DNA from: Xestospongia muta
Taxonomy: Eukaryota; Porifera; Demospongiae; Haplosclerida; Petrosiidae
DNA: 64,000 nucleotides
Reading direction: 5' to 3'
NCBI GenBank assembly: GCA_963693285.1
Contig: OY848918.1
Location: 620,001 to 684,000 of the forward strand
A program made the position numbers and the translations under genes. Under the pieces are notes generated by a model that worked only from the letters and a program-made list of their open reading frames with translations, ran no database searches and was not told the origin of the DNA. The stretch's first letter is position 1. Each line of letters starts with the position of its first letter. Shown in pieces: positions 1 to 64,000 of this stretch.

Positions 1-803
1 CTATTAACAACCACACAACTCTATAATAATAACTTATCTCATATTGTGAACACCTATATTATAGTCACAATATTACAATTTAATGACACCACAATTATTC
101 TATTTTATATTAGTGAGGTCTGTTGACATTGTCACTTGTGTAAGCTAGATAATAACAAACAATAATAATATCATAACACTATTGCCATAATGATAATACA
201 TATAAACACTTTATACTCCCACATAAATATTACACATCCCGCACACATTTTGTAAATAATAATGTTATTGCTGATTTCCTGTGTGCTATTATGATACTAC
301 CTTGTTTTTTTGGATTGATACTAAACCATCACAAAATCATAAAGATTTTAAGCACTTGTCTATGATTCTTTTTTAAAATAACATAAATGAACCAATAGCT
401 AACAGGAAATGCCACATTTTAATAGATAATCAACAGAATTTGGGTCTATATTTCACAGTTTAATAAGCAGTAATATTGTCTGTATTCCAGACTAAACAAT
501 TTAACATTAAATAATCACACAAAAACCAGGAGATATTTTAAATTCAAATGCTTTGCCCTGGTATAAAATGACTACATAAAATAAGTAATATTGATTTTAA
601 TTATCATGATAACCAAACTTATACCAGTACAAAGCTATGGACCCTATACTTTATAATATAGCCACACCCACAAAACATTCTTTGCAGTTGCTGGTTCTGA
701 GAAGCATTCATGAGCGTACATAGATACATAATTTTCTGCGTGACAATGATTATAACTTGTAATTAATCACTTGTCAGTTATTATATTATATAGAACTACT
801 TAC
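1..803. other. Non-coding, probably intron of R1
   Basis: No exon was recognised here. The stretch around 130-240 resembles the intron that lies between the short linker exon and the X1 exon of paralogue R5 (about 21465-21540), with similar runs such as TTTATA..CTCCCACATAA. I therefore read this as intron of the minus-strand gene R1, whose remaining exons lie beyond the left edge. The interval is AT-rich and holds no open frame of note. Confidence 0.5.
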
Positions 804-1848
804 ATTGATAAACACTTGAAACAAAACATTATCTCCATCTACTGTTGGTATAACTGATATTGGAATAGTTTGAGGAACTGAAATAGAAAGATAATCAAAG
901 TTGGTAAAAGGAAATCACTGCATACACTCATTCCATATAAGGTCATGTTATGTACCTCACTAGTAGACATATTGTCACGTGCTATTTACTACATGTGTAA
1001 AGCAGTTACAATAAATGTTAGGTAGTAGGTAATTAACTTGTGCTATCAACAGTTTAGTACAATACTATGGTAGAAATACATTATCCTAAATTGAACACTA
1101 CTATAAGTATTAATGTATACTAACCTCGAACAATATAGAATGTGACATTATTACTTTCTCCTATACCAGCTCCATTAACACCAGAGACATATACTGTAGT
1201 TATATCACAGTAGTCACCAATCAGGATATACTCAGTAGTATTAACTGTATCTAGAAGTGTTCCTTGATCATCATTGATGTTATATCCAGTGATAGGTACA
1301 TTATCCAATGTATATGGTGCAGACCACTTCAATAACACACTAGATCCATTGAGAATTGTAGCAGTTAGATCTTTAACAGGAGCTAGTAAACCTACATCAA
1401 TATATCATAATAATATGACATCTATAACATTAGCTCACCTTGTATTCTTAATACAGCAATATCACTGTATACTGTCTGTGAGCCAATAGCTCTACAAGAT
1501 ATATTAGTATTGTTGTTGTATTCAAATGCTTTAGCTAATAACACTCCTCTCCATTTACCATTACCAAGATCCTCTACACCTTGTTGAGTAAATCCTCTGT
1601 TAATAACATCTGCAGCTAATGCTAGGGTACTATCAACAAGAAAAGTAATGTCTAGAGTGTTAGCTTCACAAGTGAAATCAACCGTTGAGTTGAGAGTGGT
1701 ATTGACTGACTGAGGATGAACTGTAATATCTGTAAGTATAAGAAATTGTAATGATGATGAGACAAGTATTATAACACTTACCAGCTGTTTGGACAAGAGT
1801 TGGTATAATACTCATCATCACAGTCAGTATCAAGTGTAAGGAGAACAT
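804..1848 (-). CDS. R1: Ig/FN3 cell-surface receptor, 5' part only
   Basis: This is the 5' part of a minus-strand family member. Exons by eye: signal peptide 1782-1848 (ATG at 1848, hydrophobic, ending LVQTA), Ig-like 1439-1729, FN3 1125-1391, linker 804-877. Each boundary has GT..AG, and each domain exon starts and ends in phase 1. The Ig domain has Cys in FTCEA and ISCRA but no tryptophan in the usual C-strand position. The FN3 domain keeps its core Trp (LLKWSAPYT) and is nearly identical to that of the other loci. Several N-x-S/T sites suggest glycosylation. The X1, FN3-2, membrane and tail exons should lie left of the window. A ligand-binding surface role is inferred from domain content only. 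Confidence 0.75.
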
Positions 1849-1927
1849 CTTTAGTGACTATAAATTGAGACTTTATAATATTGAGACATTATAATAATGG
1901 TACAAAAGAAGTCTACATCTCAAAGAA

Positions 1928-7376: not shown

Positions 7377-8831
7377 ATGTCTACCTTATACTTAATACTG
7401 ATTGTGATAGATATTGTACTAACTCTTGTCCAAACAGTTGGTAAGTAACACAATATTGCTATTATATATAATAATATTACTGTTATATAGAGATCATAGT
7501 TCATCCTCAGTCAGTCAATACCATTCTCAACTCAACAGTTTATTTTACTTGTGAAGCTGATGTTTCTTTGATTGTATTTGAAGTTAATAATGAGATAGCA
7601 TCTCTTAATATTATAGAAAACAGAGGGTTTCAACAAATGTCTACAGAGACTCTCATTGGCAATAAATGGAGAAGAGTATTATTAACTAAAGCATTACAAG
7701 ATAATAACAATACTAATATATCATGTACAGCATATGGTTCTCTAGAGAATATTAACAGTGACATAGCTGTATTAAGAATACAAGGTGAGCTAATGTTATA
7801 GATGTCATATTATTATGATATATTGATGTAGGTTTACTAGCTCCTGTTAAAGATCTAACTGCTAAAGTTCTCAATGGATCTAGTGTGTTACTGATGTGGT
7901 CTGCACCATATACATTGGATAATGTACCTATCACTGGATATAACATCAATGATGATCAAGGAACACTTCTAGACACAGTTAATACTACTGAGTACATCCT
8001 GACATCTAGTAATGATGATCCATGTAATGTAACTACTGTATATGTCTCTGGTATTAATGGAGCTGGTATAGGAGATAGTAATAATGTCATGTACTACATT
8101 GCTAGAGGTAACACATTTCAATATTTAGCAATAGTGTGAATTGTTTATCATTGATTTCTCCTTTTTCTTTTAGTTCCTCAAACTGTTCAAGTATCAGTTG
8201 TACCAAATGTAGAGAGAAAGATTACTTTATTCAATGTGTTTATCAATGTCAGTTTAATAGTATAATATGTATATTATAACTAATAGATTCATGTGTATTT
8301 TAATGTACTTCATTTTGTTTAATTAATTTTGTTAGATTATCTTCTTTACTAGATTAGTAATCTATGTATTGGTGAGTATCCTACTAATGTTACAGTAAAT
8401 ATCAAGGACTCTAATGATGTTCTACAACAAACATTACCTCCAAGATCTGCCAAAGAAAATACTACATTTACTATTCTGTCCTACATAAATAATGAAGTCA
8501 ATTTGATGTTCAATATACCAGTGAGTCTACCCAATAGTGGTTACTATATACGATTACCATAGTTACTGTAGATTATTCTGGAATGTTCATCTGAAGCTCC
8601 AGAGAATGCTACAGTCACTGTTCAATGTGATGATGTAGTTATATTTAATAAAACATATCTGTTATATAGAATATTTAAGACAACCAGTGTAGTAGCATCA
8701 CCTGAGTCTTCTCCTAGTAAAACAATTATTTTTCTGTCATGTTTATGTTGATGTTAATTCTTTTTTTAGTTACATTTGTTGTTCTTTCATTTCTTATATT
8801 TATCATCATTATATTTAATTGTTATAGTTAG
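7377..8831 (+). CDS. R2: short Ig/FN3 receptor with almost no tail, 360 aa
   Basis: Exons: signal peptide 7377-7440, Ig 7491-7784, FN3 7832-8107, linker 8174-8247, fused X exon 8353-8520, X2 part 8572-8716, membrane 8770-8831. All joins keep frame and total 1083 nt. Residues: signal peptide 1-21, Ig 22-119, FN3 120-211, X region 212-340, membrane 341-360. Odd point: at about 8442 the X1 exon jumps directly into the linker that normally follows FN3-2 (LQQT then LPPRSAKEN), so an internal deletion removed the second FN3 while keeping the frame. X2 is also cut short, and the hydrophobic segment ends NCYS-stop, leaving no signalling tail. It could act as a decoy or partner chain. The final two exons are the least certain. 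Confidence 0.7.
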
Positions 8832-10166: not shown

Positions 10167-13100
10167 TCAAATGATATCAACATAATCAGGTGTTATTGTA
10201 GCAAGTTCATAAGATGTATTCTGTGTCATTGTTATCTGATATTGTTTAGCATCTTCATATGATATATTATGTTGTATAGTTATATCATCATCACTACTAT
10301 TACACTCTATAATATAATATATTATATTACATGTATACATGATATACATACTTTGTCTCTTCTTTACATAATAAACACCCACACAAACACTGGTGATAAT
10401 GAAAATTACTAATATACCAGGAATAAAAACGGCAAAAAAAATAATATCTACAGAAAGTAATTACATATAATTTAGTAACTATATATCTTACAACGAACAC
10501 TTTGTGATTTGGGTGTTTCTGTTATTCCATTACTAGGAGCTGTTGTGATCATGACTAAATAAACAATATCATATACTTACTGCTAACTTACTTGTACTAG
10601 TTTGTAACATATCAGTTACTATTAATGACTCATTTGTGTTAGATGGTAGTATTATTACAATATCTCTTAATATTATAGCTGGTAATATTGATGTTAGTGG
10701 TATATCAATCTCCACATCATATACATAGACTGTATAATTACCAGCTGGGAGATTATCAATACAACCTTGTACAGTAAGATCACTTGGACTGTTTTTAACA
10801 AATGTTTTGTTCATTGAAGTCATTCCAATCACACTAACATAACACGACTTGGCAGATGGAGCATATGAAAATACACACTCCACACATATAGAATTACCAT
10901 TAGTGTAAGCAGTAGCATTTGTAACATCATATGTACCTATATCATATAATAATATCAATATATTACATAATATAACTATCTCTTACTTAAAGTACGTATC
11001 AATGGATCACTGTGTCCAGCATTTTTACTGAAGATAATAGAGAGAGTACAGAGTTGGTGCTGAGGAGCTGACAAGCTATCTGTTATGTCCATAGGTTGAC
11101 TTGAATATTCTATCAGATATGTTTTATTAAATATAACTACATCATCACATTGTACAGTGACTTTAGCCTTCTCTGGAGCTTCAGGTGGACATTCCAGAAT
11201 AATCTACAGTAACTAAGTAATCATATAGTAACTACTATTGGATACACTCACTGGTATATTAAACATCAAGTTGACTTTATTTCTTATATAGGAGAGAATA
11301 GTAAATGTAGTATTTTCTTTGGCAGATCTTGGAGCTTAAATGACATGATAAAATAACACACATATTAGTTATTTTAACTAACCTCTTTGAAAAGAGAAGG
11401 TACTATTGTTATGTTCTCCTTCACCCAGTTTATTTATACCATATATGGTATATGTGTATTGATGACGAAATAATTCCTGATCTTCGTACTTGTATTCATT
11501 TCCATTAATAGATACATTTTGTAATAACATCTTGTTGACATCATCATATATCAGTAGTATATAGTAAGATATCTGGACTCTACTGTCTACATTAGGAGGA
11601 TCCCAACTGATAGTAATAGTAGTACAGTTGTCAAGTGATGAAGAGATATTGAGAACAGAAGTAAGAAAACCTGTCTCATACAAGAGATAATACACACACA
11701 AAACATAACATGTGATATATAACTTACCAAATGGAAATACATTGATAGTATGATCAAACTGTCCAGCTGGATTACTAAGAGTTACCTCAACAAGATATGT
11801 CCTCAAGTTAACAGGTGATGATATATTAACTATTATCAGTTGATTATTAACTAAAGAGAGTGTCACATCATTAGATAATGTTTGTTGTAGAACATCATTA
11901 GAGTCCTTGATATTTACTGTAACATTAGTAGGATACTCACCAATACATAGATCACTGACCTAGTAAAGATAGGAGATATTTTAACTATATAAAGTATTTG
12001 TGTTCATATAACATTAATAAACATTAATAATATCATAGTACCATTATGAAAATTTTATATATTCCAACAGAATGTGTATTTTTTTGAATTACTAACTACT
12101 ATTATATTTACCAATACATATATCTTAACATTATAATAATATAATTCCACATATTGTATAGACAGACTACAATGGTTATATTATCAAGAACACTTGTTGT
12201 CTACAAACTAACATTTATAATCACTTGAAATAAAACATTATCTCCATCTACTGTTGGTATAACTGATACTGGAATAGTTTGAGGAACTAAATAGGAAAGA
12301 AATGTAACATTACTGTATAACATAATATGTTACCTCTAGCAATATAGTACATGACATTATTACTATCTCCTATACCGGCTCCATTAATACCAGAGACATA
12401 TACAGTAGTTACATTACATGGATCATCATTACTAGATGTCAGGATGTACTCAGTAGTATTAACTGTGTCTAGAAGTGTTCCTTGATCATCATTGATGTTA
12501 TATCCGATGATAGGTACATTATCCAATGTATATGGTGCAGACCACATCAGTAAAACACTAGATTCATTGAGAACTGTAGCGGTTAGATCTTTAGCCGGAA
12601 CTAGTAAACCTGGATAGTATATACAATCACAACACCAACTATGACAAATAATACATATAATGTTTGTCCAATTAATTGTTATTTGTTTAGATATTGCTCT
12701 AGTATTATTTTAGAAGCTTTAACATTGTAATTGCTGAATGATTAGTTAAATCAACCATTATATATTTATGCAGGTTGCATGTAGCATTATTTATAAACAG
12801 GGAATTATATAGGATAACAACCATTATGTTTACTTTCAGTTTACATCAAATGATTTCGCTACTTACAACCTGTATAACCATATATTAATTAAATCAACCA
12901 GTCAATTTTTACAGTGATAAGGTTAAGGGCACATAGTGATCAGTTTAAGAAAGTAATAGTGAACTAACTCACCTTGTATTCTTAATACAGCAATGTTACT
13001 GTATACTGTCTCTGAAGCAATAGCTCTACATGATATATTAGTATTATTGTTATCATCAAATGCTGCAGCTAATAACACTCTTCTCCATTTAACATTACCA

Positions 13101-13357
13101 AGATCCTCTACACCTTGTTGAGTAAATCCTCTGTTAATAACATCTGAAACTAATGCTAGGATACCATCAACAAGAAAAGTAATGTCTACAGTGTTAGCTT
13201 CACAAGTAAAATCAACTGTTGAGTTGAGAGTAGTATTAACTGACTGAGGATGAACTGTAATCTCTGTAGTGTATAAGTTAACTTAAACATCTGTTTTATA
13301 CTTACCAACAGATTGTGCAAGAGACATTATTACAGTCAGTATTAAAAGCATCTTCAT
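10167..13357 (-). CDS. R3: full-length Ig/FN3 receptor with Tyr-motif tail, 718 aa
   Basis: Twelve exons splice into an open frame of 2157 nt: signal peptide 13306-13357, Ig 12973-13263, FN3-1 12334-12609, linker 12213-12286, X1 11728-11959, FN3-2 11383-11670, linker 11252-11334, X2 10987-11203, Y 10592-10936, stalk 10492-10554, membrane 10352-10447, tail 10167-10306. Residues: signal 1-17, Ig 18-114, FN3-1 115-206, X1 207-308, FN3-2 309-404, X2 405-504, Y 505-619, stalk to 640, membrane within 641-672, tail 673-718. The tail has four tyrosines (689, 695, 705, 714) in SYEDA, QYQI, SYELA and PDYVDI, resembling SH2-docking or immunoreceptor tyrosine motifs without matching ITIM strictly. It is divergent from R4 at 13501. 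This is the best reference copy for the family. The receptor role is inferred. Confidence 0.85.
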
Positions 13358-13500: not shown

Positions 13501-14132
13501 ATGTCTGCTTTACTTAATTCTAATATTATCTTGTCTCTCATCTCTTACTTATACAGTTGGTAAGTTTCATTTTTATTACAATTTTTAGCATTAAATGATA
13601 TTGTCATACTTTACAGATATTACAGTTCATCCTCAGTCATCAGTCAATACTACTCTCAACTTAACAGTTAATTTTACCTGTGAAGCTGACATTGGAGACA
13701 TTAGTTTTCTTGTTGACAGTACTCTAGCATTAGCTGGAGATGTTATTAACAGAGGATTTACTCAACAAGGTGTGGAAGATCTAGATAATGGGAAATGGAG
13801 AAGAGTGTTATTAGCTACAGCATTTGAAGATAATAATACTAATTATATCATGTAGATCTATTGATTCACAGACAGTATGGAGTCACATTGCTGTATAATA
13901 CAAGGTAACTTAGCTCACTATTATGTCTTTAAAATGATCACCATATATCCTTTTAACCTTGTAAAACTTCTAAATAGTGAAGAGTAAATAAATTGCAATA
14001 TGGCTGCCGTTTGTTGTTACAAGCTCTTGTTACTAACTTTCTGTTTGTTTCTATTAGAGTTATAAGTCCTTCTGACTCATTCTCCCAGTCTAACACTCAG
14101 TCTTTTACCTCCTGGCTCTCTAGATCTGTTGG

Positions 14133-15466: not shown

Positions 15467-17990
15467 AAAATGTTCTATTTTAATGCTCACAGCATTCTTC
15501 CTAAACTAGATGAACTCTCTGTTCTCTGCTCTGTCCTTAATCCTGATCTTGTCTGTATTGCACAATCTTGGCTACCTGCCGACATTTTCAATCTTGATAT
15601 TGCTCTGCCTAATTACTTGTAACCGCCATGGTGGTGGTATTGTTGTCTATGTAAAACTTCACTTTATTACTTCCAAAGTACATGTTTCTCATAAAATTGA
15701 ATTTCTTCTCCTATCTACTAAGCTTTATCATTGCTCATTTCAATTGGCACTTATGACCGGCCCACATCTTCATATGATGACGATCTGGATCATTTATTTG
15801 ATGAGCTCACATCCCTCAATCACTCCATTCTTTCTTATCTTATCTTTTTAGGTGATTTTAACACTAGTTTCTATTCCACTTTATCCTCTAAGACCAAACT
15901 AGATGTCATATCTGACACTTTTGATCTTAAGCAAATTGTTAATGTTCCCACTTATTTCTCTCACACTGATACACCACTATTGATCTTGTTTTCTCCCATG
16001 TAACTTTGACGCTCATTCTTGTAGTATCCTTCCACCTGTCTCTTCAGCCCATTTCTCTATTCTTTTTTATCTTCCCACTGAATGTATTAACAGTCCTTCC
16101 CCTTCCTCTCCTCACAAGGTGTGGCTGTACCATATCTCGCTGACTTTGAACATGCTAATGTTAATTCTCCTCTGCTCCATTGACTGGAGAGAATTACTCC
16201 TCTTGTCAGATCCTAATGCTTCCTGGGCCATATTTAAAGAAGTTTTCCTCTCCATTATGAGCACCACTGTTCGTAACAAACTTGTCTACCCCCCCTACCA
16301 ACTTTTCTTTTCTTTGGGTCAACCACTCTTTTATTAACCAAGTCAAGATAAAAAACTCCATCTTCTCTTCTGCCAAAAGAACTGATTCTCCTTCTCTTTG
16401 GGCCAAATACCATTCCTATTGTAACAAGACTATTGCTTACCTCAGACACCTAAAATTCAAATTCTTCCATAATCTACTTACTTCACCCTCACCACAGTCT
16501 TTTTGGTCTGCTGTTAAATGTATTCACTCCAAACATGTGTCCATTCCCTCCATTATCCATAATGGTTCTCCTGTAACTTCATCCTCTTCTAAAGCTAATG
16601 TTCTAAATCAATACTTCTCCTCCTGCTTCAACAGGTCAACTGCCCTTTACCTTCTCTGACTCATAGTCCTTATACTTCACTACAAGACAACTATCCAGAT
16701 TTTCTCTGTAATCCAGATGAAATTTGCAGCCTCATTTCTCGTATTTCTATTGACACTGCTACTGGTCCTCATGGTATCTCCTCTATCATGCTCCACAACA
16801 CAGCTCCTAGTATTTCACTTCCTTCTTTTCCTAATTTTCAATTCCTTCCTCTCTACAGGCATTTTCCCTTCAGACTGGAAAACTTCAATATCATACCTAT
16901 TCCTAAATTGAAAACCTCTTCTTCATTCCCTTCAGTCTATTGCCCAATCTCTTTATTTTCCCTCCTAAGTAAGATTCTGGAATGTCCATTTTTAATTATC
17001 TGTATGACTTTTGTTCCACTCATAACATCCCTTTTAATTGTCAGTTTGGTTTCTGATCCAGACTCTAAACTGAAACAGCTTTAATATCTATTGTCAATTC
17101 TTGGTTTTCTTCATTGAATCTCAATGAAGCAATCTGTGCAGTCTTCTTTGTTCTCACAAAAGCATTTGACTCAGTCCCTCACAAGCCCCTACTTGACTTC
17201 TTATCTTCACTTGACCTTCCTCCCCTTCTTTTGTCTAGGCTCCATAGTTATCTACAAGGCCATACTCAACAAGTAATTATAAATTGTTCTCTATATTTTA
17301 AATCTCAAATCACATCTGGTGTGCCCCATAATGGTTCTCTCTTATTCATCATCTATATAAATGACATTGCTTTAGCCAGCTTCACCCTTTATGTTGATGA
17401 CATTCTTCTATCTCAAGAAATTTCTTCTCCAACTTCAATGTCCACTGTTTAATCCAACATTGATCTCATTACATCATAGATTAACTCTCGTCATCTCACC
17501 ATCAACTCCAACAAAAAACAATAAATGATCATCTCACACTGGTCTTCCTCTTTTTCAAACACCTTCTTTCCTCTTTTTTAAATGGTTCTCAACTTATACA
17601 TGTCGATTCATTTAAATATCTTGGTGTTATTATTTCCTCCAATTTATTGTGGTCTTGTCACATCCAATCTATCTGCTCTATAAACCTCGTCAAAACATTG
17701 GGATCATCTATCGTAACTTCTATCAGCATGCTTCTCCTCAAATTCTTCTCACTTTGTATTACTCTCTTATCATTCCTTATTTTACCTATTGCTTGTCTGT
17801 CTGGGACCTACCAGTATCTTCCACCAATTCTGAAATTCTCGAAAAAACTCAACACTTTGTTCTAAAAATATGCTCTCATAAATGGGACAGTGATTACTCA
17901 TCTCTTCTCTCAACTTTTAACCTTCCAACCCTCTCAACTCATTGCTCTATTTCTGAATTATGTCTTCTCTATAAAATTATTAACAGTCTC
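15467..17990 (+). pseudogene. LINE endonuclease-reverse transcriptase, multiple frameshifts
   Basis: Endonuclease signs are FNAHSILPKLDELSVLCSV and PDLVCIAQSWL (from 15474), GGGIVVYV (15640), and LGDFNTSF with VNVPTY (15850-15960). Reverse transcriptase signs are IPIPK (16895), PISLFSLLSKILE (16950), FFVLTKAFDSVPHKPLL (17140), SGVPHNGSLLFIIYINDI (17320) and YVDDILL (17390). The thumb and C-terminal part continues to LLYKIINSL near 17985. These lie in several frames with stops between them, so no enzyme can be made. Domain order and motifs are standard for the CR1 group. Confidence 0.8.
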
Positions 17991-37384: not shown

Positions 37385-37392
37385 ATTTCCAT

Positions 37393-38390: not shown

Positions 38391-38410
38391 TTATATAAGA
38401 CATAGTGTAA

Positions 38411-46659: not shown

Positions 46660-48760
46660 TATAATATATTGAGAGAATACTTACTAATAAACTATAAGTA
46701 TGTAGTAGTATTATTATCTCTTGGTAACTGATGATCTCTCATAACAAGACCTACAATAAAGTCATATTATGTAACATATTATAAGAGTACTTACTGTCAT
46801 GATAGTTCTCAGGAGAGTCTTCTTCAATATGACCAGGTAATGGTCCTTCATTATGATATCCTATCTGGTGTTGAGGTGATACCAATATTGGCTCTACTTC
46901 ACTGGTACTGGTAAGAAAAGGAGATATTAGTCCTCCGGTCATTTCTTCATCATTGGATATTTGTTTGGTACTATCTGATGTCTTGTTAGTATTAGCTGGT
47001 ATAGCAGGTGGTATATCATCATCTTATACATTAGTTGGTATAGGAGGTGTTATATCATCATCTTGTACATTAGTTGGTATAGGAGGTGGTATATCATCAT
47101 CTTGTACATTAGCTGGTATAGGAGGTGTTATATCATCATCTTGTACATTAGCTGGTATAGGAGGTGTTATATCATCATCTTGTACATTAGTTGGTATAGG
47201 AGGTGTTATATCATCATCTTGTACATTAGCTGGTATAGGAGGTGTTATATCATCATCTTATACATTAGTTGGTATAGGAGGTGTTATATCATCATCTTGT
47301 ACATTAGTTGGTATAGGAGGTGGTATATCATCATCTTGTACATTAGCTGGTATAGGAGGTGTTATATCATCATCTTGTACATTAGCTGGTATAGGAGGTG
47401 TTATATCATCATCTTGTACATTAGTTGGTATAGGAGGTAGTATATCATCATATTGTACATTAGCTGGTATTATAGTAACACTAGGTATTGATGAATTAAT
47501 ATCATTATAAGCTGGAGGATGTTGTTCTATTATTGGAGGGATATGAAGTAAATTAGCACATACTACTCTATCACTAGATGGGGGGAGGAGCTTGAGGTCA
47601 CTTTTAAAACTTTTCTTAAGATCTTGATAAACAACTTTCTATAATTAATTTATAATAATAATATAAACAAAATTTTTGTTACCATATCATGAGGATGGCT
47701 ATAGTAGAAACTAAATATTGTCTACTATAATATTATTAAGACTATGATTTTCCACAATAATACTAGAAGACTCTAGTAGATGGTGAGTGTCATCGTGGCT
47801 ATCTTTGATAGAACAACTTAACGTAATTTATTACATGTTGATTAGTGAGATGTGATACTACTTCATATTCAGAATATGAAACACTGATGTTAGGAGGAAA
47901 ATCAATTACATTAGTATAGTATAAATTATTTATTGTGTCTTGAAATTATGTTATTCGTTTTTCCATCATTTTTATTGTGTACAACTATAATGTTTTTTAG
48001 AAAATTCCTGAAGATCTTGATAAACAACTGTTTCTTTTTTCTGTGGAATAAAATAGCATTATATACAATCTCTTAATATTATTATTACTTCAATAGAAAC
48101 TGGACTCTCTTCTACTTCAATACTCTCAGAACTCTTAGTATATGTTATTGACTGAGTACTGACAGTCTATAATATTAATAATAATAATAATAATAATATT
48201 AATATCAATAATGTATCATATAATGACTTACTGATGGTCTATTATCAAGATATGGTAATAAACTATCATCTTTGTTTTTCTTGTTTTCTATGAACAGTTT
48301 AATACAATATTATATAACTAAATCAACTTACTTCTCTTCTTATAACATAGTACACAACAACAACAACAACAACCAAAAGATGTAATGATCACTATGATAA
48401 CTCCACCCACAACACTAACACCAATAATCACTATTATATTATAAATAATATAGTAGTTATTAAACTATGTACTTACATATTGCTTGTGTTGATTTAGTTG
48501 ATAATGTTGTATTCATAGTATTAATTGGTGTAGCCATGGTAACTACATAAATTAATTAAAATAAACAAATTAATATGGAATACATTCCATTATGTTTCAT
48601 AGTAAAAATTCTGTACTTATGTACGTATGTTGTACTTAATGGTAGTAGTTGGTAATATATCAGTTATTACAATATCTTTTAATATTATAGCTGGTAATAT
48701 TGATGTTAGTGGTATATCATTCTCCACATCATATACATAGACTGTATAATTACCAAAATT
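46660..48760 (-). pseudogene. R11: membrane and Pro/Asp tail relic with 12 repeats and internal stops
   Basis: On the minus strand there are a fragment of domain Y (48640-48755, NYTVYVYDVEND, PLTSILPAI), a stalk near 48485-48540, a membrane exon near 48345-48440 (VIIGVSVVGGVIIVIITSF), juxtamembrane exons, and two alternative tail starts (about 47990-48045 and 47500-47640). A tail exon with twelve 13-residue repeats and the usual end GGLISPFLTSTSEVEP follows. Two repeat units have CAA changed to TAA (near 47025 and 47255), so a translated tail would stop inside the array. No Ig or FN3 exons are joined to it. It sits directly behind R12 and could only be expressed by read-through splicing from there. 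Confidence 0.6.
46996..47464 (-). repeat. 39-bp minisatellite in R11 tail, 12 units
   Basis: Twelve units of 39 bp alternate between variants with ATTAGCT and ATTAGTT (Ala or Thr in the protein) and GGTG(G/T)T (Pro or Thr). The alternation suggests expansion by blocks of several units rather than singly. Confidence 0.9.
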
Positions 48761-48878: not shown

Positions 48879-51709
48879 TCAAATAATATTAACATAATCA
48901 GGTGTTATTGTAACAAGTTCATAAGATGTATTCTGTGTCATTCTTATCTGATATTGTTTAGTATCTTCATATGATATATTTTGTTGTATAGTTATATCAT
49001 CATCACTACTATTACACTCTATAATAATATAATTAGATTATATTACATGTATACATGATATACATACTTTGTCTCTTCTTTATATAATAAACACCCACAC
49101 AAACACTGGAGATAACTAGCACAATTAAAATTACTGATATACCAGGAATTAAAACAGCAAAATAATCACATCTACAGAAAGTAGTTACATAATAATTTAG
49201 TAAATATTATCTTACAAGAAACACTTTGTGATTTGGGTATTCCTGTTATTCCATTACTAGGAGCTGTTGTGATCATGACTAAACAAACAACATAATATAT
49301 GTATCACTAACTTACTTGTAGTAGTTTGTATTACTATTGACTCACTTGTGTAAGATGGTAGTATTATTACAGTACCTCTTAATATTATAGCTGGTAATAT
49401 TGATGTTAGTGGTATATCATTCTCCACATCATATACATAGACTGTATAATTACCAGTTGGAAGATTATCAATACAACCTTGTACAGTAAGATCACTTGGA
49501 CTGTTTTTAACAAATGTTTTGTTCATTGAAGTCACTTCAATCACACTAACATAACATGACTTAGCAGATGGAGCAGATGAAAATACACACTCCACACATA
49601 TAGAATTACCATTAGGGTAAGCAGTAGCATTTATAACATCATATGTACCTATATCATATAATAATATCAATATATTACATAATATCACTATCTCTTACTT
49701 AAAGTACGTATCAAAGGATCACTTTGTCCGGCATTATTACTGAATATAATAGAGAGATTACAGAATTGATGTTGAGGAGCTGACAGAGGTTGACTGTCTG
49801 TTATGTTCTTAAGTTGACTTGAATATTCTACCAGATATATTTTATTAAATATAACTACATCATCACATTGTACAATGACTGTAGGATTCTCTGGAGCTTC
49901 TGATGAACATTCCAGAATAATCTACAGTAACTATGGTAATCATATAGTAACCACTATTGGATACACTCACTGGTATATTAAACATCAAGTTGACTTCATT
50001 ATTTATATAGGACAGAATAGTAAATGTAGTATTTTCTTTGGCAGATCTTGGAGCTAAAATGACATGATAAAAAAACCACATATTAGTTATTTTAACTAAC
50101 CTCTTTGAAATGAGAAGGTACTATTGTTATGTTCTCCTTCACCCAGTTCATTTATACCATATATGGTATATGTATATCGATGACGAAATAATTCCTGATC
50201 TTCATACTTGTATTCATTTCCATTAATAGATACATTTTGTAATAACATCTTGTTGACATCATCATATATCAGTAGAATATAGTAAGATATCTGGACTCTA
50301 CTGTCTACATTAGGAGGATTCCAACTGATAGTAATAGTAGTACAGTTGTCAAGTGATGAAGAGATATTGTGAACAGAAGTAAGAAAACCTGTCTCATACA
50401 AGAGATAATACATACACACAACATAACATGTGATATATAACTTACCAAATGAAAATACATTGATAGTATGTCCAGCTGGATTACTAAGAGTTACCTCAAC
50501 AAGGTATGTCCTCAAGTTAACAGGTGATGATATATTAACTATTATCAGTTGATTATTAACTAAAGACAGTGTCACATCATTAGATAATGTTTGTTGTAGA
50601 ACATCATTAGAGTTCTTGATATTTACTATAACATTAGTAGGATACTCACCAATACATAGATCACTAACCTAACATCACAAAAAGGAAATGAAAGTTATTG
50701 TAACTATATAAACTTACTATACTAATGAAACCTAACAATATAGTGTGATATACAGTGGTATATCTTAACATATAATAATAAAATTCCACATATTGTATGG
50801 ACAGACTACAATTGATTATATTATCAAGAACACTTGTTGTCTATAAACTAACATTGATAAACACTTGAAATGTAATATTATCTCCATCTACTGCTGGTAT
50901 AACTGATATTGGAATAGTTTGATGAGGAACTGAAATATAATAGAAATGTAACATCACTGTATAACATAATATGTTACCTCTAGCAATATAGTACATGACA
51001 TTATTACTATCTCCTATGCCAGCTCCATTAATACCAGAGACATATATAGTAGTTACATTACATGGAACATCATTATTAGATGTCAGGATGTACTCAGTAG
51101 TATTAACTGTGTCTAGAAGTGTTCCTTGATCATCATTGATGTTATATCCAGTGATAGGTACGTTATCCAATGTATATGGTGGAGACCACATTAGTAAGAC
51201 ACTAGATCCATTGAGAACTGTAGCAGATAGATCTTTAACAGGAGTTAGTAAACCTACATTAATATATCATAATAATACGACATCTATAACATTAGCTCAC
51301 CTTGTATTCTTAATACAGCATTGTCACTGTTTGCATTCATTGAAGGACCATATGCTATACATGATATATTGGAATTGTTATTATCTTCTAATGCTTTAGC
51401 TAATAATACTCTTCTCCATTTATTGCCAGTGAGAGTCTCTGTAGATTGTTCTTCAAACCCTTTACTTTCTATAATATTAAGAGATGCTAAAACATTATTA
51501 ACTTTAAATACAATCAAAGAAACATCAGCTTCACAAGTAAAATAAACTGTTGAGTTGAGAGTAGTATTGACTGACTGAGGATTAACTATGATCTCTACAT
51601 AACAGTAATATTATTATATATAATAGCAATATTGATGATACTTACCAACTGTTTGGACAAGAGTTAGTACAATATCTATCACAATCAGTATTAAGTATAA
51701 GATAGACAT
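48879..51709 (-). CDS. R12: full Ig/FN3 ectodomain, frameshift at the membrane segment
   Basis: Exons: signal 51646-51709, Ig 51301-51594, FN3-1 50978-51253, linker 50853-50929, X1 50446-50668, FN3-2 50101-50388, linker 49971-50053, X2 49699-49921, Y 49316-49648, stalk 49216-49278, membrane 49068-49171, tail 48879 to about 49022. All joins keep frame up to the stalk. The membrane exon lacks one base at its start (CAAAATAATCACATC on the plus strand, against CAAATATAATTATATC in R9), so translation ends YVIILLF-stop just before the hydrophobic core. The undamaged downstream frame still reads FAVLIPGISVILIV and a tail with SYEDT, SYELV and PDYVNII. As written, the product is a secreted ectodomain of about 640 residues. 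A sequencing error is the other explanation. Confidence 0.65.
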
Positions 51710-53672: not shown

Positions 53673-55258
53673 ATGTCTAATTTATACTTAATACTGATTG
53701 TGATAGATATTGTACTAACTCTTGTCCAAACAGTTGGTAAGTATCATCAATATTGCTATATAATAATATTACTGTTATATAGAGATCATAGTTCATCGTC
53801 AGTCAGTCAATACCATTCTCAACTCAACAGTTTTTACTTGTGAAGCTGATGTTTCTTTGATTGTGTTTGAAGTTAATAGTGAGATAGCATCTCTTAATAT
53901 TATAGAAAGCAAAGGGTTTCATGAACAATCTACAGAGACTCTCATTGGCAATAAATGGAGAAGAGTATTATTAGCTAAAGCATTAAAAGATAATAACAAT
54001 ACTAATATATCATGTAGAGCATACGGTTCTCTAGAGAATATACACAGTGACATTGCTGTATTAAGAATACAAGGTGAGTTAATGTTATAGATGTCATATT
54101 ATTATGATATATTGATGTAGGTTTACTAGCTCCTGTTAAAAGGTATAACTGCTAAAGTTCTCAATGAATCTATTGTGTTACTGATGTGGTCTGCACCATA
54201 TACATTGGATAATGTACCTATCACTGGATATAACATCAATGATGATCAAGGAACGCTTCTAGACACAGTTAATACTACTGAGTACATCCTGACATCTAGT
54301 AATGATGATCCATGTAATGTAACTACTGTATATGTTTCTGGTATTAATGGAGCTGGTGTAGGAGATAGTAATAATGTCATGTACTATATTGCTAGAGGTA
54401 AGTATTTATTGTTTAGCAAAATAATTGAGTTTACACTTTAGCTCCCAAGAGTGGATCTACCTTTCTATAACTACTGATACAACCAACAGTCTATAATATG
54501 ACAATATCAATACAAATATTTGTTAATGTAAGTACAACAATATCTTAACAGTGAAAATAAACTGGATGTCATTATAACATATACAGGTGAGTCATCTTTG
54601 TCCTGGAGAGTAGTCCTACTAGTGTAGATACCGTATTATAATAAAGAATTCTACTGGTCATATAGTACATAGTCTCACTGATGGTACATTGTCTCTTATT
54701 ACTGGACACCAGTTTGTTGTCAATGAGTATATTATATTGTCTAGTAAAGTTAATATATCTATCTCAACTGAGGTTACATTCAGTAATCTTGATGGAGAAT
54801 TTAATGTATTAACAGATGTGGAGTTCAGTAAGTCTATATATTATCTCCTGTTTATTAATTGTTTGTTTTATTATAGTAACTTCAGTTAATATCAGTGTTA
54901 ATAATAACAGTATTTGTATCCAATGTTATTATATGGATAAGACTACTAAATTAGGATGTCAACTGGATCTAGTCAATGATACTAAAGTACTTTATAGAGT
55001 CCAAATATTAAAGAATTCAACTACTAACAAAGCTAATGATTGTATATTAAATATATCAAGTGGTTACTATGACCTCTATACATATGATATTAATGAGAAT
55101 AGTACAATAAATACTGTTCCTATTGATATCAAATATCAAGTATTTGTACCCTACTGAGTTGATACTACCATCATCAACATTAACAACAATACTACCTTCA
55201 TGTAAGTATTATGTTGTGTCACTGATAACTATATATATTTCATTTTAGCTCAGTATCT
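53673..55258 (+). pseudogene. R13: R2/R15-like receptor pseudogene
   Basis: The signal peptide exon (53673-53736) and Ig exon (53785-54074) are open, with one codon deleted near 53832 (TVFTC for TVYFTC). The FN3 exon has an extra base at about 54140 (GTTAAAAGGTATAACT for GTTAAAGATCTAACT). The next domain has TAG in place of a Tyr codon near 54615 together with a 6-bp net insertion, and the last ectodomain exon has an extra C near 55150 giving VPY-stop. From 54420 on it resembles R15 (60766 onwards), whereas the 5' half resembles R2, so it is also a mosaic. The membrane exon is replaced at 55258 by a tail relic in the opposite orientation. Confidence 0.75.
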
Positions 55259-56563: not shown

Positions 56564-59500
56564 TTATTTTGGGGTGACATTCTCCATCTCATTCTGTTCA
56601 CCATTCTGCTGGAAGTCTAGGATAATAATGTATTAGTCAATATAATAAAAGCAGACTAACTCACCTTTTGTTTTAATAGTTTTTCGTATTTTCCTTAAAA
56701 GACGTATGAGAAATATTACTATGAATACTATTATTAAAAAGCTAACTAACACGACAGAAGGAACAATATATTTCCCTAATATATAAAAATATATTAGTCT
56801 TCATTATTACATTTGATATACTTACATATTGGCTTTGACGTAGTTGGTAATATATTATTTATTACAATATCTCTTAATATTATAGCTGGTAATATTGATG
56901 TTAGTGGTATATCATTCTCCACATCATATACATAGACTGTATAATTACCAGCTGGGAGATTATCAATACAACCTTGTACAGTAAGATCACTTGGACTGTT
57001 TTTAACAAATGTTTTGTTCTTTGAAGTCACTCCAATCACACTAACATAACATGACTTAGCAGATGGAGAAGATGAAAATACACACTCCACACATATAGAA
57101 TTACCATTAGGGTAAGCAGTAGCATTTATAACATCATATGTACCTATATCATATAATAATATCAATATATTACTGAATATCACTATCTCTTACTTAAATT
57201 ACGAATCAATGTATCACTCTGTCCAGCATTATTACTGAATATAATAGAGAGATTACAGAGTTGATGTCGAGAAACTAAAAGATTATCTGTTATATTCATA
57301 AGTTGACTTGTATAGTTCACCAGATATATTATATTAAATATAACTACATCATCACATTGTACAGTGACTGTAGCATTCTCTGGAGCTTCAGATGAACATT
57401 CCAGAATAATCTACAGTAACTATGCTAATCATATAGTAACCACTATTGGATAGACTTACTGGTATATTAAACATCAAGTTGACTTCATTATTTATATAGG
57501 ACAGAATAGTAAATGTGGTATTTTCTTTGGCAGATCTTGGAGCTAAAATGACATGATAAAAAAACCACATATTAGTTATTTTAACTAACCTCTTTGAAAT
57601 GAGAAGGTACTATTGTTATGTTCTCCTTCACCCAGTTCATTTATACCATATATGGTATATGTATATCGATGACGAAATAATTCCTGATCTTCATACTTGT
57701 ATTCATTTCCATTAATAGATACATTTTGTAATAACATCTTGTTGACATCATCATATATCAGTAGTATATAGTAAGATATCTGGACTCTACTGTTTACATT
57801 AGGAGGATCCCAACTGATAGTAATAGTAGTACAGTTGTCAAGTAATGAAGAGATATTGAGAACAGAAGTAAGAAAACCTGTCTCATACAAGAGATTATAT
57901 ACACACACAACATAACATGTGATATATAACTTACCAAATGAAAATACATTGATAATATGATCAAACTGTCCAGCTGGATTACTAAGAGTTACCTCAACAA
58001 GATATGTCCTCAAATTAACAGGTGACGATATATTAACTATTATCAGTTGATTATTAACTAAAGACGGTGTCACATTATGAGATAATCTTTCTTGTTGAAC
58101 ATCATTAGAGTCCTTGATATTTACTGTAACATTAGTAGGATACTCACCAATACATAGACCACTGACCTAACAGAGATAACATCACAAAAAGGAAATGAAA
58201 GTTATTCTAACTAAGAAAATGATTATACTAATGAAACCTAACAATATAGTATATGATATACAGTCATACATCTTAACAATACAATCATATAATTTCACAA
58301 TATAATATAGTTAAACTACATTGGTTATATTGATTGTTTTACTATACTATCAAGAATATTGGCTGTTTACAGACTTACATTGGTAAACACTTGAAATAAA
58401 ACATTATCACTTTCTAATGCTGGAAAAACTAATACAGAAATAGAATGAGGAACTGAGTATGAAAGAGAAAGATAAGATCACTGCATAACAGAATATGTTA
58501 CCTCTAGCAATATAGTACATGACATTATTACTATCTCCTATACCAGCTCCATTAATACCATAGACATATACAGTAGTTACATTACATGGATTATCGTAAC
58601 TAGATGTCAGGATGTACTCAGTAGTATTAACTGTGTCTAGAAGTGTTCCTTGATCATCATTGATGTTATATCCAGTGATAGGTACATTATCCAATGTATA
58701 TGGTGCAGACCACATCAGTAACACACTAGATCCATTGAGAACTATAGCAGTTAAATCTTTAACAGGAGCTAGTAAACCTATATCAATATATCATAATAAT
58801 ATGACATCTGTTTGAGCTTAGTACAGATTGTGAATACTACACAAGAATACCACTGATTAGTCAATATTCACGACACAACAGAGAATGAGAGTCAAATACT
58901 ACTTTATTGATTTCAACAAAATGAGAGAGAGAGAGAGAAAGAATCGACAGACTATATCATAGAACAGAAAAAAAAAGAAAAACTAGAAAGTTCTGAACAT
59001 AACATGTGCTAGAGCACATGGTACAGAAAGATCTGGAAGAACTATGACCAAATAGGGAATGATTAAAGTTACATAAAGTGTTAATTAAATATTATAGCAT
59101 GACCAAACAACATCGATAATATTAGCTCACCTTGTATTCTTAATACAGCAATGTCACTGTAGTTTGTCTTTCCATTTTGAGCTCTACATGATATATTAGT
59201 ATTGTTGTTGTTTTCTGATGCCTTAGCATGTAACACTCGTCTTTTCCTACCATCATTAAGGGTATATTGTGGTTGTTGCATAAATCCTTTCTTTATAATA
59301 TCTGTATTATCTGCAAAGGTATCATTAACTCTAAAGCTAATTTCAGTAGCAACTGCTTCACAATCAAAGATAACTGTTGAGTTAAGTGTGGTATTGACTG
59401 ACTGAGGATGAAGATTGACATCTGTAAAATATGAGACTATAATAGTGTTTCAGACTAACTAGTCAGTTTGTATAATACTTAGATTATATAATTATATATT

Positions 59501-59583
59501 TACTTACAAATTGTATGGCCATGGACAAGAGTTAGATAAATAGATAATAATACAACAGTTAGGATTAGGTGTAAGGAAAACAT
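56564..59583 (-). CDS. R14: full-length Ig/FN3 receptor with short 17-residue tail, 672 aa
   Basis: Eleven exons splice to 2019 nt: signal 59508-59583, Ig 59131-59421, FN3-1 58502-58777, linker 58379-58452, X1 57935-58166, FN3-2 57590-57877, linker 57460-57542, X2 57194-57410, Y 56826-57143, membrane 56665-56775, tail 56564-56616. Residues: signal 1-25, Ig 26-122, FN3-1 123-214, X1 to 316, FN3-2 317-412, X2 to 512, Y 513-618, membrane about 620-645 with a following RLLRKIRKTIKTK basic stretch, tail to 672 (QQNGEQNEMENVTPK). The tail has no tyrosine, so signalling through SH2 docking is not expected; a partner chain or adhesion role is possible. The Ig domain groups with that of R15, to which it is head to head. 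The intron between Ig and FN3-1 carries a 300-bp purine-rich insert (58810-59100). Confidence 0.85.
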
Positions 59584-59952: not shown

Positions 59953-62004
59953 ATGTCCATCTTATGTTTGATTATAATTATGATATTAATATCTGTAGAA
60001 TCTAACCAAGTTGGTAAGTATCATGATAGAGGATATATATATATATATATATCATGCGAATTAAAACATATATTACATCACAGTTGTTATATTTTACAGA
60101 GATTACAGTTCATCCTCAGTCAGTCAATACCACTCTCAATTCAACAGTTGATTTCATTTGTGAAGCTGTTACTGATGAAATTAGTTTTAGAGTTAATGAT
60201 GAATCAGCAGCTAATATAGACATTATAAATAAAGGATTTATTCAACAACCACAAAATATTCTCAGTGATGGTAGAAAAAGAAGAGTGTTATCAGCTAAAG
60301 CATTACAAAATAACAATAATACTAATATATTGTGTAGAGCTATTGGTTCAGAGCTAGTAAACAGTCACAAAGCTGTGTTAATGATACAAGGTAATTTATT
60401 ATTATATATTTTATCATTATAATATTACTATGTATATACTACCCAGGACTACTAGCTCCTGTTAAAAATCTAACTGCTACAGTTCTCAATGGATCTAGTG
60501 TGTTACTGACGTGGTCTGCACCATATACATTGGATAATGTACCTATCACTGGATATCACATCAATGATGATCAAGGAACACTTCTAGACACAGTTAATAC
60601 TACTGAGTACATCCTAACATCTAGTAATGATGATCCATGTAATGTAACTACTGTATATGTTTCTGGTATTAATGGAGCTGGTATAGGAGATAGTATTAAC
60701 ATCATGTACTATATTGCTAAAGGTATAGATTTTAAAAAATAGTAATAATTCAGTTCTCATTCTAGCTCCCAAGAGTGGCTATACACACTTATTACTGCTA
60801 ATACAACCAACAGTCTATGATTTGACAATAACAATGAAAGCATTTGTTGATGTAAGTAGACCAGCAATATAATAGCAGTGAAAATAAAGTGAATGTTGTT
60901 GTTTTTTACAGGTGAGTCACCTTTGTCCTGGAGAGTATCCTACTAGTGTAGATATTATAATAAAGAATTTTACTGGTCATATAGTACATAGTCTCACTGA
61001 TGGTACATTGTCTCTTATTACTGGACACCAGTTTGTTGTCAATGAATATATTATATTGTCTAGTAAAGTTAATATACCTATCTCAACTGAGGTTACATTC
61101 AGTAATCTTGATGGAGAATTTAATGTATTAACAGATGTGGAGTTCAGTAAGTCTATATATTATCTCCTGTTTATTAATTGTTTGTTTTATTATAGTAACT
61201 TCAGTTAATATCAGTGTTAATAATAACAGTATTTGTATCCAATGTTATTATATGGATAAGACTACTAAATTAGGATGTCAACTGGATCTAGTCAATGATA
61301 CTAAAGTACTTTATAGAGTCCAAATATTAAAGAATTCAACTACTAACAAAGCTAATGATTGTATAGTAAATATATCAAGTGGTTACTATGACCTCTATAC
61401 ATATGATATTAATGAGAATAGTACAATAAATACTGTTCCTATTGATATCAAATATCAAGTATTTGTACCTACTGAGTTGATACTTAGACCCTCTGTAGTC
61501 CTATCTACTATTTATACACTCCCTTCAATACTACCATCAACAACAACAACAACAACAACAATATTACCTTCATGTAAGTATTATATTGTGTCACTGATAA
61601 CTATATATATTTCATTTTAGCTCAGTCTAGTCAGTTCAGAAGTACTACTATAATTATTATCATTACTATATCTACCACTATACCAGTTATAATAGATGTG
61701 ATGATAATTGTGGCTGTAGTTGTCATTATTATTATTAGAACTATCAAGAGATCTCAACAAAGTATGTATATATTCTCTTTATGTACAATATAATGTTATT
61801 ATATTATTAGGTCACAATATAACTGATAATGATGTTAATACACAACAGAATGAAGCTTATGATGTTATTGGACAGTTTAAAATGAAAATAGTTCATAATA
61901 TGTCATATGAAGATGTCATAGTCCCTGCTAATAATACACCTGATTATGTTAATGTTAGAAATGTAAATAAGAAAGTTGAAAGGTTTAATCTCTTAAATCA
62001 ATGA
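59953..62004 (+). CDS. R15: Ig/FN3 receptor with Tyr-motif tail, 553 aa
   Basis: Eight exons splice to 1662 nt: signal 59953-60013, Ig 60100-60390, FN3 60447-60722, linker 60766-60851, X 60912-61146, Y-like and Thr stalk 61196-61573, membrane 61621-61761, tail 61811-62004. Residues: signal 1-20, Ig 21-117, FN3 118-209, X to 316, Y-like to about 415 with four Cys, Thr/Pro stalk to 442, membrane about 452-480, tail 490-553. There is no second FN3. The tail carries AYDVI (Tyr506), SYEDVI (Tyr522) and PDYVNV (Tyr535). YVNV fits the pY-x-N docking preference of Grb2-type SH2 domains, and SYEDVI is ITIM-like apart from Met at -2. A signalling receptor role is inferred. The Ig domain (FICEAVTDEISFRVND) is clearly different from the R3 type although FN3 is almost identical. 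Confidence 0.85.
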
Positions 62005-62172
62005 TCTACAAATAAATATATTGTCTGCTTCATTTAGTAGGTGTTGTGTGCATTCTAATAATTATTAAAAAATCTTTTTGTCAAACATTTCCACTCAAGC
62101 TCATTGATCCTTCTCCTTAAAATATTTTTATTACAATAAATTGAATATAATGATCATTTGACACACAAAGTA
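62005..62172. other. Tail-to-tail interval R15/R16
   Basis: This short AT-rich gap holds TAATTATTAAAAAATC-type text and the shared 3' flank of Pro/Asp tails. No terminator or RNA gene was recognised. Confidence 0.4.
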
Positions 62173-64000
62173 TTAATTAACTATAACTATCTTGATAACT
62201 GATGATCTCTCATAACAAGACCTACAATAGTACTTACTGTCATGATAGTTCACAGGAGAGTCTTCTTCAATATGACCAAGTAATGGTCCTTCATTATGAT
62301 ATCCTATCTGGTGTTGAGGTGATACCAATATTGGCTTTACTTCAATGGTACTGGTAAGAAAAGGAGATGTTAGTCCTCCAGTGATCTCTTCATCATTGGA
62401 CATTTGTTTGGTAGTATCTGATGTCTTGTTAGTTTTAGCTGGTATAGGAGGTGGTATATCATCATCTTGTACATTAGCTGGTATAGGAGGTGGTATATCA
62501 TCATCTTGTACATTAGCTGGTATAGGAGGTGGTATATCATCATCTTGTACATTAGTTGGTATAGGAGGTGGTATATCATCATCTTGTACATTAGCTGGTA
62601 TAGGAGGTGGTATATCATTATCTTGTACATTAGCTGGTATAGGAGGTGGTATATCATCACCTTGTACATTAGCTGTTATAGGAGGTGGTATATCATCCTT
62701 GTACATTAGCTGTTATAGGAGATGGTATATCACCATCTTGTTTATTAGCTGGTATAGGAGGTGGTATATGATCATTTTGTACATTAGCTGGTATAGGAGG
62801 TGGTATATCATCATCTTGTACATTAGCTGGTATAGGAGGTGGTATATCATCACCTTGTACATTAGCTGTTATAAGATGTGGTATATCATCCTTGTACATT
62901 AGCTGTTATAGGAGATGGTATATCATCATCTTGTACATTAGCTGGTATAGGAGGTGGTATATCATCATCTTGTACATTAGCTGGTATAGGAGGTGGTATA
63001 TCATTATCTTGTACATTAGCTGGTATTATAGTAACACTAGGTATTGATGGCTCTATATCATCATAAGATGGAGGATGTTGTTCTGTTTTTGGTGGAAAAA
63101 AGTATAACAGAGTACAATACTCTATCACTAGATGGGGGAGGAGCTTGAGGTCACTTTTTGAAAATATCTGAATATCTTGATAAACAACTTTCTCCTATTT
63201 CTGGAAAGACTATAATAATATAACAATATTATTATATTAATATATGTTATAATTACCCTATCATCATGATGAGTCTCTCTTAATTCACGATCTTTCTATA
63301 ACTAGTAATATCAATCGTATAATAATTTACTAATGATCTATCATCATTTTCTACTGAACTTATACTTAATTAATTTATACTTTCCTAAGAACAGATATAT
63401 TAGTAGTACTGTAAAGTGTATATAAATTTACTTTTCCTTTTATAGTCTCCAACTACTACAATTATGATAATAATAACAATAACAATGACAAGTACACTTG
63501 TTGGAACTGTAGTAGCAATAATTATAACTAAATTAGATAATAAAGATATAAAAACTATAAAGTATGTTTGTCTTACTGGAAAAAGCTTCTGTTGTTAGTA
63601 TTCCACCAGTAGTAAGAGATGATGTCATATAATATCAATATATAAATATATAACCTAATATTACTAACTCTCACTTAAAGTATATCAATGGATTACTGTG
63701 TCCAACATTATCACTGAATTTAATAGAGAGACTACATTGTTGATGTTGAGGAGCTAACAAAGGTTGACTATCTGTTATGTTCTTAGATTGACTTGAATAT
63801 TCTACTATAACATCTTTCATTACTAATAACTACATCATCATATTGTGTAGTGACTGTAACATTCCAGAATAATCTACAGTAACTATGGTAATCATATAGT
63901 AACCACTATTGGATACACTCACTGGTATATTAAACATCAACTTGACTTCATTACTTATATAGGACAGAATAGTAAATATAGTATTTTCTTTGGCAGTTCT
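62173..64000 (-). pseudogene. R16: 3' part of a receptor with Pro/Asp tail, damaged, runs off right edge
   Basis: Minus-strand pieces: linker at the edge (63944-64000, AKENTIFTILSYISNEV), X2 about 63680-63868, a membrane exon near 63430-63530 (VPTSVLVIVIVIIIIIVVV), and a tail exon 62210-63190 with PPSYDDIEP and about 15 repeats. X2 lacks 23 bp after LEC (TGTTACAGTCAC for TGTTCATCTGAAGC..GCTACAGTCAC), giving a shift and a TGA. In the tail, two units have lost 2 bp (near 62693 and 62890), and the first gives NVQG-stop. The last intron has shrunk to 16 bp (62221-62240), far below a spliceable size. A 5' part beyond 64000 may exist, but the locus as seen is broken. Confidence 0.65.
62440..63026 (-). 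repeat. 39-bp minisatellite in R16 tail, about 15 units
   Basis: About fifteen units follow one another. A block of several units (variants with CACCTTGTACATTAGCTGTT, then CATCCTTGTACATTAGCTGTT, then AGATGGTATATCA) occurs twice, at about 62655-62740 and 62850-62925, so the array grew by block duplication. Two units are 37 bp instead of 39. Confidence 0.85.

Follow-up and report, generated by a model that had tools for sequence, protein, structure and literature searches.

In vertebrates, the leukocyte receptor complex (LRC; KIR/LILR) comprises clustered immunoglobulin (Ig) receptors with inhibitory- or activating-like tails. The Alr complex of Hydractinia is described, in excerpts from the literature, as clustered single-pass Ig superfamily genes with pseudogenes among them, a polymorphic extracellular region and tyrosine motifs in the tails. 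For Botryllus, the excerpted part of a 2025 review reports fester and FcoR as receptors in variable haplotypes with immunoreceptor tyrosine-based inhibitory (ITIM) or hemi-activation (hemITAM) motifs; according to the same part, the proteins that are candidates for allorecognition in sponges, cnidarians and ascidians are not conserved, and signalling through tyrosine motifs is attributed to cnidarians, ascidians and mammals (PMC12065747). The candidate cell-recognition molecule of sponges, as excerpted sources present it, is the aggregation factor, an extracellular proteoglycan complex. Here we analyse a stretch of 64,000 nucleotides (nt) from the demosponge Xestospongia muta (the window; positions 620001-684000 of contig OY848918.1, here C2) that carries a cluster of receptor genes built from Ig and fibronectin type III (FN3) domains. 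The window is probably part of a germline-encoded, diversified recognition-receptor complex, with a role in self/non-self or microbe recognition. A preliminary description of the window had proposed clustered Ig-family receptors with a variable tip, a shared scaffold and exchangeable signalling ends. At the class level this is supported by genome copy maps, structure prediction of the tip, site variability, decoupled exon histories and partial replication in Amphimedon. A single assembly was used throughout (158 Mb in 28 contigs; C2 has 22.1 Mb), and diversity was measured between paralogues, which is not the same as allelic polymorphism.

Receptor architecture and extent of the family

Modules were mapped by exon-wise tblastn and repeat searches, which revealed repeated exon modules on both strands of the window. 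The Ig exon occupies 12 places, two of them broken relics, and the first FN3 exon (FN3a) ten. The second FN3 exon (FN3b) is present in six full copies and a further domain, X, in four full copies, one fragment and two divergent copies; tail exons are numerous. The repeat search also returned families of 4-7 copies, 300 nt long and 60-98% identical, which are evidently not due to chance. The general architecture starts with an Ig tip and an FN3 domain, continues with a combination of Ig-like, FN3 and X domains or a stalk that differs between genes, and is completed by a transmembrane segment (TM) and one of several tails. FN3 exons are present in all five open gene models (R3, R5, R7, R14 and R15), the FN3 of R14 lying above the Pfam cut-off, whereas neither the Ig tip nor X nor any Ig-like domain reached a Pfam cut-off. 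Each model has a hydrophobic, TM-like stretch with basic residues after it, as seen by eye.

The tails are of several types and carry YxxL/I/V motifs. ITIM motifs and their activation counterparts (ITAM) have the form [SIVL]xYxx[IVL] in a cytoplasmic tail. Long-tail exons match this form (VVYSDI, VVYSQI, KVVYQDL), and the long tail is joined to the TM in none of the five open models. The long-tail exon also contains a 39-nt, proline-rich minisatellite with the unit PANVQDDDIPPPI, of which different genes have about 2 to 15 copies (window 38410-38657, 46991-47470, 62435-63026 and other places). This minisatellite is a candidate coding length-polymorphism.

Searches of the whole genome placed the family on C2. 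The R1 Ig tip gave 81 matches, all on C2, of which 67 reached E<=1.5e-14 and fell into three clusters (53 at 0.59-1.00 Mb, 9 at 2.46-2.54 Mb and 5 at 3.16-3.20 Mb). Matches of the FN3a exon (110) and of the long and short tails (90 and 24, respectively) were likewise all on C2. The preliminary description had proposed a genome search with the FN3 exon as a check for a single cluster; the family was found to extend to further C2 clusters beyond that of the window. Among the best 150 of 417 candidates for the X exon, 146 were on C2, and roughly 90 of the X matches listed were distant (27-40% identity) and located at C2 3.6-5.5 Mb. Read by eye, an 8-kb sample from this region (L085) gave the order Ig, FN3, FN3, one more domain, X and TM, followed by a tail that carries YENV and YGVI. 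At least 147 of the best 150 of 208 candidates for the L085 Ig exon lay on C2 at 3.57-5.47 Mb; for its X exon, at least 148 of the best 150 of 354 candidates were on C2, at least 13 of them inside the clusters of the first family. A third receptor type was found at 1.07 Mb (L086). The R6 ectodomain exon had 17 genome matches, all on C2, which partly share stretches with long-tail matches (1.07-1.14 and 2.6-2.7 Mb). These counts refer to exons and include relics. Judged by sequence similarity, this end of C2 holds some two hundred or more related receptor copies, broken ones included.

At C2 ~3.726-3.786 Mb, matches recur at a constant offset of 46,123 bases, suggesting a recent segmental duplication or an unremoved haplotype copy or assembly artefact; copy numbers of the second cluster may therefore be slightly inflated. 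Outside C2 we observed X fragments on C1 at 14.47-14.60 and 25.10 Mb (three alike, each with a stop), one Ig and X copy on C14 at 2.88 Mb and two Ig copies on C5 at 1.22-1.33 Mb. Further clusters of FN3 exons were located on C5 (3.3-3.6 Mb), C7 (0.22-0.70 and 1.75-1.83 Mb), C9 (5.63-5.68 Mb), C12 (1.0-1.2 Mb) and elsewhere.

Variation of the Ig tip and the adjoining FN3 exon

Structure prediction of the R14 Ig tip, carried out as a check, gave a confident Ig fold (pLDDT 95.7). The structural match scores were 13.1 for NCAM, 12.4 for both DIP and Rst and 12.2 for Dscam; V domains of antibodies and T-cell receptors scored 11.7-11.9, near the I-set scores. In a structure alignment of 59 Ig sequences, 18 of the 20 most variable residues fell on strand C, within the C-D stretch or in the surroundings of the FG loop. 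Along strand C, alternate residues were nearly fixed or highly variable. The FN3 exon adjoining the tip was nearly uniform.

For the selection and tree tests, 66 of the 67 strong Ig matches were fetched (C2:916724 was left out, as were weaker fragments such as C2:736005). The fetched DNA contained 70 Ig intervals; 61 were full-length and open, and for 53 of the 61 a complete open FN3a lay within pairing distance. Only the 53 paired genes entered the tests. Pairing excluded R3 and R14 (introns of ~0.36 kb), and the R9 FN3a was dropped for a stop. Match lists were copied by hand, and the intention was to exclude the query's match to itself, partial rows and rows outside C2.

Pairwise synonymous and nonsynonymous differences (pS/pN) were 0.298/0.222 for the Ig exon and 0.117/0.075 for FN3a. 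The pS values of the two exons were not correlated (Spearman 0.05) and all-nucleotide distances correlated weakly (0.16, Mantel p 0.03); in within-exon controls, the correlation was 0.28 between the halves of FN3a and 0.54 between two parts of the Ig core. In approximately unbiased (AU) tests the tree of each exon was rejected by the data of the other (p 5e-5 and 6e-6), indicating that exons were exchanged or converted between genes; these tree-based tests are limited by recombination inside exons. Within clusters, physical distance correlated with Ig distance at rho 0.33 and with FN3a distance at 0.03. The Ig core had a diversity of 0.28-0.37; the intron that separates tip and FN3a, usually ~50 nt long, had 0.14-0.16, and most of FN3a had 0.04-0.14, with higher values at its 3' end. 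The pN/pS ratio was 1.48 (1.33-1.69) in FG columns, 0.45 in the rest of the Ig exon and 0.64 in FN3a; among the 54 closest pairs it was 1.09 in the core and 1.02 in FG. We read these sequence patterns as a stalk that is exchanged or converted across the complex and a tip that is kept diverse.

The R14 receptor has 28 relatives, 26 from Amphimedon queenslandica and two JGI proteins, all at 35-46% identity; the five best align with 73-85% of R14 and are 42-45% identical to it, with E values as low as 3e-110. By this similarity, R14 is homologous in its ectodomain to an Amphimedon Ig-FN3-Ig-FN3-Ig receptor family. The nearest relatives are uncharacterised 'Fibronectin type-III domain-containing' proteins (among them P0001, P0003/LOC109583152, P0005 and P0025). 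They share with the sponge family here the order Ig tip, FN3, Ig-like, FN3, Ig-like, TM, as well as the contrast between tip and FN3a. The Amphimedon rows inspected by eye differ in showing a stalk rich in Thr and Pro, and X could not be recognised in them. We aligned 26 of the 28 homologues (P0011 and P0025 were left out), giving 24 Amphimedon rows, of which 20 contained a sufficient part of the tip to be counted. Mean pairwise identity among these was 0.52 for the tip (190 pairs) and 0.84 for FN3a (276 pairs), and 0.63, 0.72 and 0.46 for the remaining domains. Variability of the tip by residue correlated between Amphimedon and this sponge (rho 0.73, n 94), in part because of the shared Ig core. 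These alignments show a partial replication of the tip/FN3a contrast in Amphimedon.

Some Amphimedon tails appear to share the order of YxxL/I motifs and a PPPIP stretch with the family here. By eye, the order PIYSDL, VEYADI, SYDDV in P0005 parallels NYQDL, VVYSDI, SYDDI, and the order YxxL, YxxI, SYDDI/V recurs in P0005, P0011 and P0025, the last without the Tyr of the final motif. One Amphimedon row is annotated with Pfam PF15330, which we take to be the SIT adaptor family. A full-length Amphimedon model was of moderate quality (pLDDT 72.5, pTM 0.41), and its domain arrangement was therefore not interpreted.

Genes, relics and other features of the window

The modules of the window sort into about the 16 units, R1 to R16 on both strands, that the preliminary description had listed (Table 1). 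The high load of pseudogenes and relics was likewise borne out (R2, R4, R8, R10, R11 and R13 are partial or relic), as was, by eye, one gene with a frame break at the membrane exon, R12. Six intact genes had been claimed; open models with GT-AG introns were obtained for the five named above. A single signal peptide (SP)-Ig-FN3-X ectodomain in every gene was contradicted by the stalks of R5 and R7, which lack X, and by the ectodomain exon of R6. Models R5, R7 and R14 extend from SP to TM, and R3 and R15 extend to the stop. Their internal junctions are GT-AG, module borders are mostly in phase 1 and a phase-0 intron lies inside each Ig-like domain. A mutual frame shift of exons ex7 and ex8 in every copy was considered and rejected, since the observation is accounted for by a phase-0 intron at the position that it has in the first Ig-like domain.

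Table 1. Receptor genes, relics and other features of the window (window coordinates; aa, amino acids)
Feature	Position	Strand	Description
R1	792..1848	-	SP, Ig (1437-1730), FN3a (1123-1389), first half of Ig-like domain (792-878); extends past left edge
R2	7377..8664	+	Relic; Ig and FN3a open; next domain fused to start of a later one, an internal deletion by eye
R3	10167..13357	-	Complete, 12 exons, 718 aa plus stop, no internal stop; SP-Ig-FN3-Iglike-FN3-Iglike-X-stalk-TM-short tail (NTSYELA..PDYVDI)
R4	13616..13895	+	Ig exon relic with frame change
R5	19706..22402	-	SP-Ig-FN3-Iglike-Thr/Ser-rich stalk-TM, 396 aa to TM, 7 open exons (20686-22402); model ends at TM; long tail exon open at 19706-20188 (VVYSQI, PPIYDNV, PANVQDDDIPPPI repeats)
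R6	26482..27854	-	Different ectodomain exon (27312-27854) upstream of long tail of R5 kind (26482-26988)
R7	31142..34977	-	SP-Ig-FN3-Iglike-FN3-Iglike-short Thr-rich stalk-TM, 562 aa to TM, 10 open exons
R8	41056..41928	-	Partial, without Ig; mid, FN3b, ex7 and ex8 remnants; tail repeats 38409-38738 downstream
R9	42564..45740	-	Most exons present; short tail 42564-42716; FN3a 44839-45075 truncated, donor phase no longer fitting because of a deletion at its end
R10	45998..46274	+	Ig exon relic in three pieces
R11	46778..48754	-	X fragment (48641-48754); long tail carrying ~12 units of the 39-nt repeat
R12	48882..51709	-	SP to X open by eye; short tail NTSYELVTITPDYVNI; membrane-exon frame break
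R13	53782..55151	+	Relic with stops in third domain; X-like exon 54867-55151
R14	56665..59583	-	SP-Ig-FN3-Iglike-FN3-Iglike-X-TM, 655 aa to TM, 10 open exons; downstream, a broken long-tail relic alone seen (55252-55476)
R14 Ig tip model	59129..59421	-	Ig fold, possibly I-set-like, pLDDT 95.7
R15	59953..62001	+	Complete, 8 exons, 553 aa plus stop; SP-Ig-FN3-Iglike-divergent X-TM-tail (NMSYEDV..TPDYVNV)
R16	62230..64000	-	ex7/ex8 pieces at right edge; long tail with ~15 copies of the 39-nt repeat
Reverse-transcriptase remnant	16261..18131	+	LINE-like; PF00078 E 1.2e-6 in 17069-17452; within a stretch of strong negative GC skew (12-20 kb)
Tandem repeat	24118..24320		33-nt unit, ~6 copies, distinct from tail repeat
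Inverted repeat	35319..37010		Long; arms 468 nt, 100% complementary; with 321-bp tandem duplication
Open reading frame	40498..40875	-	Resembles a further kind of reverse-transcriptase fragment (RYVDD, by eye); no match in Pfam search

The inverted repeat may represent a pair of mobile elements. An origin of the receptor exons from mobile elements or viruses was rejected: they have GT-AG introns, and the reverse-transcriptase remnants lie beside, not inside, the modelled genes. In mitochondrial COX1 (contig C28), TGA must be read as Trp. The protein is 100% identical, along its entire length, to UniRef entry I6LIL5_XESMU, which is labelled Demospongiae; because COX1 evolves slowly in sponges, the match identifies the group rather than the species.

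Possible roles and comparison with known systems

In a recognition-receptor complex of this kind, the FN3 and Ig-like domains would form a rod beneath the tip, and the variable tip surface may bind a ligand, be it another receptor, a conspecific molecule or a microbe. Binding could then lead to phosphorylation of tail tyrosines, and SH2 proteins would be recruited. The stalk would be homogenised by gene conversion and exon exchange, with selection keeping the tip diverse.

Several observations weigh against this interpretation. Variable positions of the tip also occur on strands B and E (18, 65, 67), so that more than one face is involved. The pN/pS of the Ig core is 0.86 (0.81-0.92), with an excess in the FG loop only, and IQ-TREE codon models gave an omega of 0.43 for the tip, 0.36 for FN3a, 0.56 for variable and 0.27 for conserved columns, none of the four above 1. 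The intron upstream of the tip has a diversity of 0.34-0.62, above that of the tip, in a doubtful alignment. Relaxed constraint and old duplication could account for part of the pattern. In Amphimedon, the third Ig-like domain varies as much as the tip, and BLASTP of the tails is weak (E 0.002 for one pair, 0.13 for the other). Conservation of tail tyrosines partly reflects recent copying, because copies with stops are included. The main text of the Amphimedon graft transcriptome paper, in the portion available, does not contain 'immunoglobulin', 'fibronectin' or 'receptor'.

Among specific roles, we regard as a tentative possibility that the complex is a repertoire for recognising microbes or symbionts, with many germline specificities on phagocytic or epithelial cells as for FREPs, Dscam and SRCR/NLR. 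The very large copy number and the parallel subfamilies are consistent with this role. Excerpts of two studies point the same way, since sponge genes annotated as Ig superfamily or FN3, of whichever family, are regulated on exposure to microbe-associated molecular patterns and sets of pattern-recognition receptors vary between individuals (PMC6208332, PMC8242945). A variable Ig tip, however, suits contact with a self ligand equally well. Allorecognition proper, by analogy with Alr1/Alr2 binding in Hydractinia, appears rather unlikely. Individual-specific tips would bind an identical or matching receptor of an adjacent sponge, and the balance of tail types would decide between fusion and rejection. 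Sponges do discriminate grafts, according to the available part of one study (PMC5450542), but more than 200 copies exceed the need of one or two determinants, and in the accessible text the literature's sponge candidate is the aggregation factor and the graft study names none of these receptors.

Mostly neutral birth-and-death of one adhesion receptor, with conversion homogenising the stalks and the tips lying outside conversion tracts, is improbable. The core pN/pS below 1, the relic load and the diverse upstream intron would fit such an expansion, but the tip-FN3a intron is less diverse than the coding tip core, strand C alternates between nearly fixed and highly variable residues, pN/pS in FG is 1.48 and the tip/FN3a contrast is alike in another genus. 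A cell-adhesion or cell-identity code within one sponge, similar to protocadherins or Dscam and serving tissue patterning rather than immunity, is very improbable: the structural matches of the tip include adhesion Ig domains (NCAM, Dscam, DIP, Roughest) and the moderate Amphimedon model matches rods such as contactin and receptor protein tyrosine phosphatases (TM-scores 0.15-0.27 by model length), but tip divergence between paralogues, the amino-acid excess in the FG loop and the high relic load are unusual for a developmental code, and there is no close one-to-one match in Amphimedon (35-46% identity).

A wider proposal, which we consider unlikely, is that C2 0.6-5.5 Mb is a recognition super-locus resembling the LRC or the major histocompatibility complex, and including the genes for graft acceptance. 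Its more than 200 copies would belong to four or more ectodomain subfamilies, some of which have tails in common, and the tyrosine motifs would be of activating- or inhibitory-like kinds. If this were true, Ig receptors with tyrosine motifs for self/non-self would already exist in sponges, and conversion at the exon level around a protected, variable tip would generate their diversity. A variable-tip Ig/FN3 super-locus with YxxL/I tails would provide concrete genes for the question of self/non-self and of symbiont versus food in sponges. The locus is also a clear natural case of a diversified tip decoupled, exon by exon, from a homogenised stalk.

No description of this receptor family was found in the parts of the open-licence PMC literature available, and titin and DCC were the only entries listed for R14 in a sequence search of the PDB. 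Unlike the sponge aggregation factors, described as an extracellular complex, the proteins here have a TM. Vertebrate KIR/LILR are comparable only in how they may work, and differ in that FN3 is present here. Botryllus fester and FcoR, compared by description only, resemble the sponge family in receptor type and tyrosine motifs. The Hydractinia Alr complex is similar in its clustered genes with many relics. In contrast to Alr, FN3 alternates with Ig here and an X domain or a stalk precedes the membrane; membership of the Alr family was rejected because of the FN3 domains. The copy number in this sponge is several times that of the Hydractinia Alr complex.

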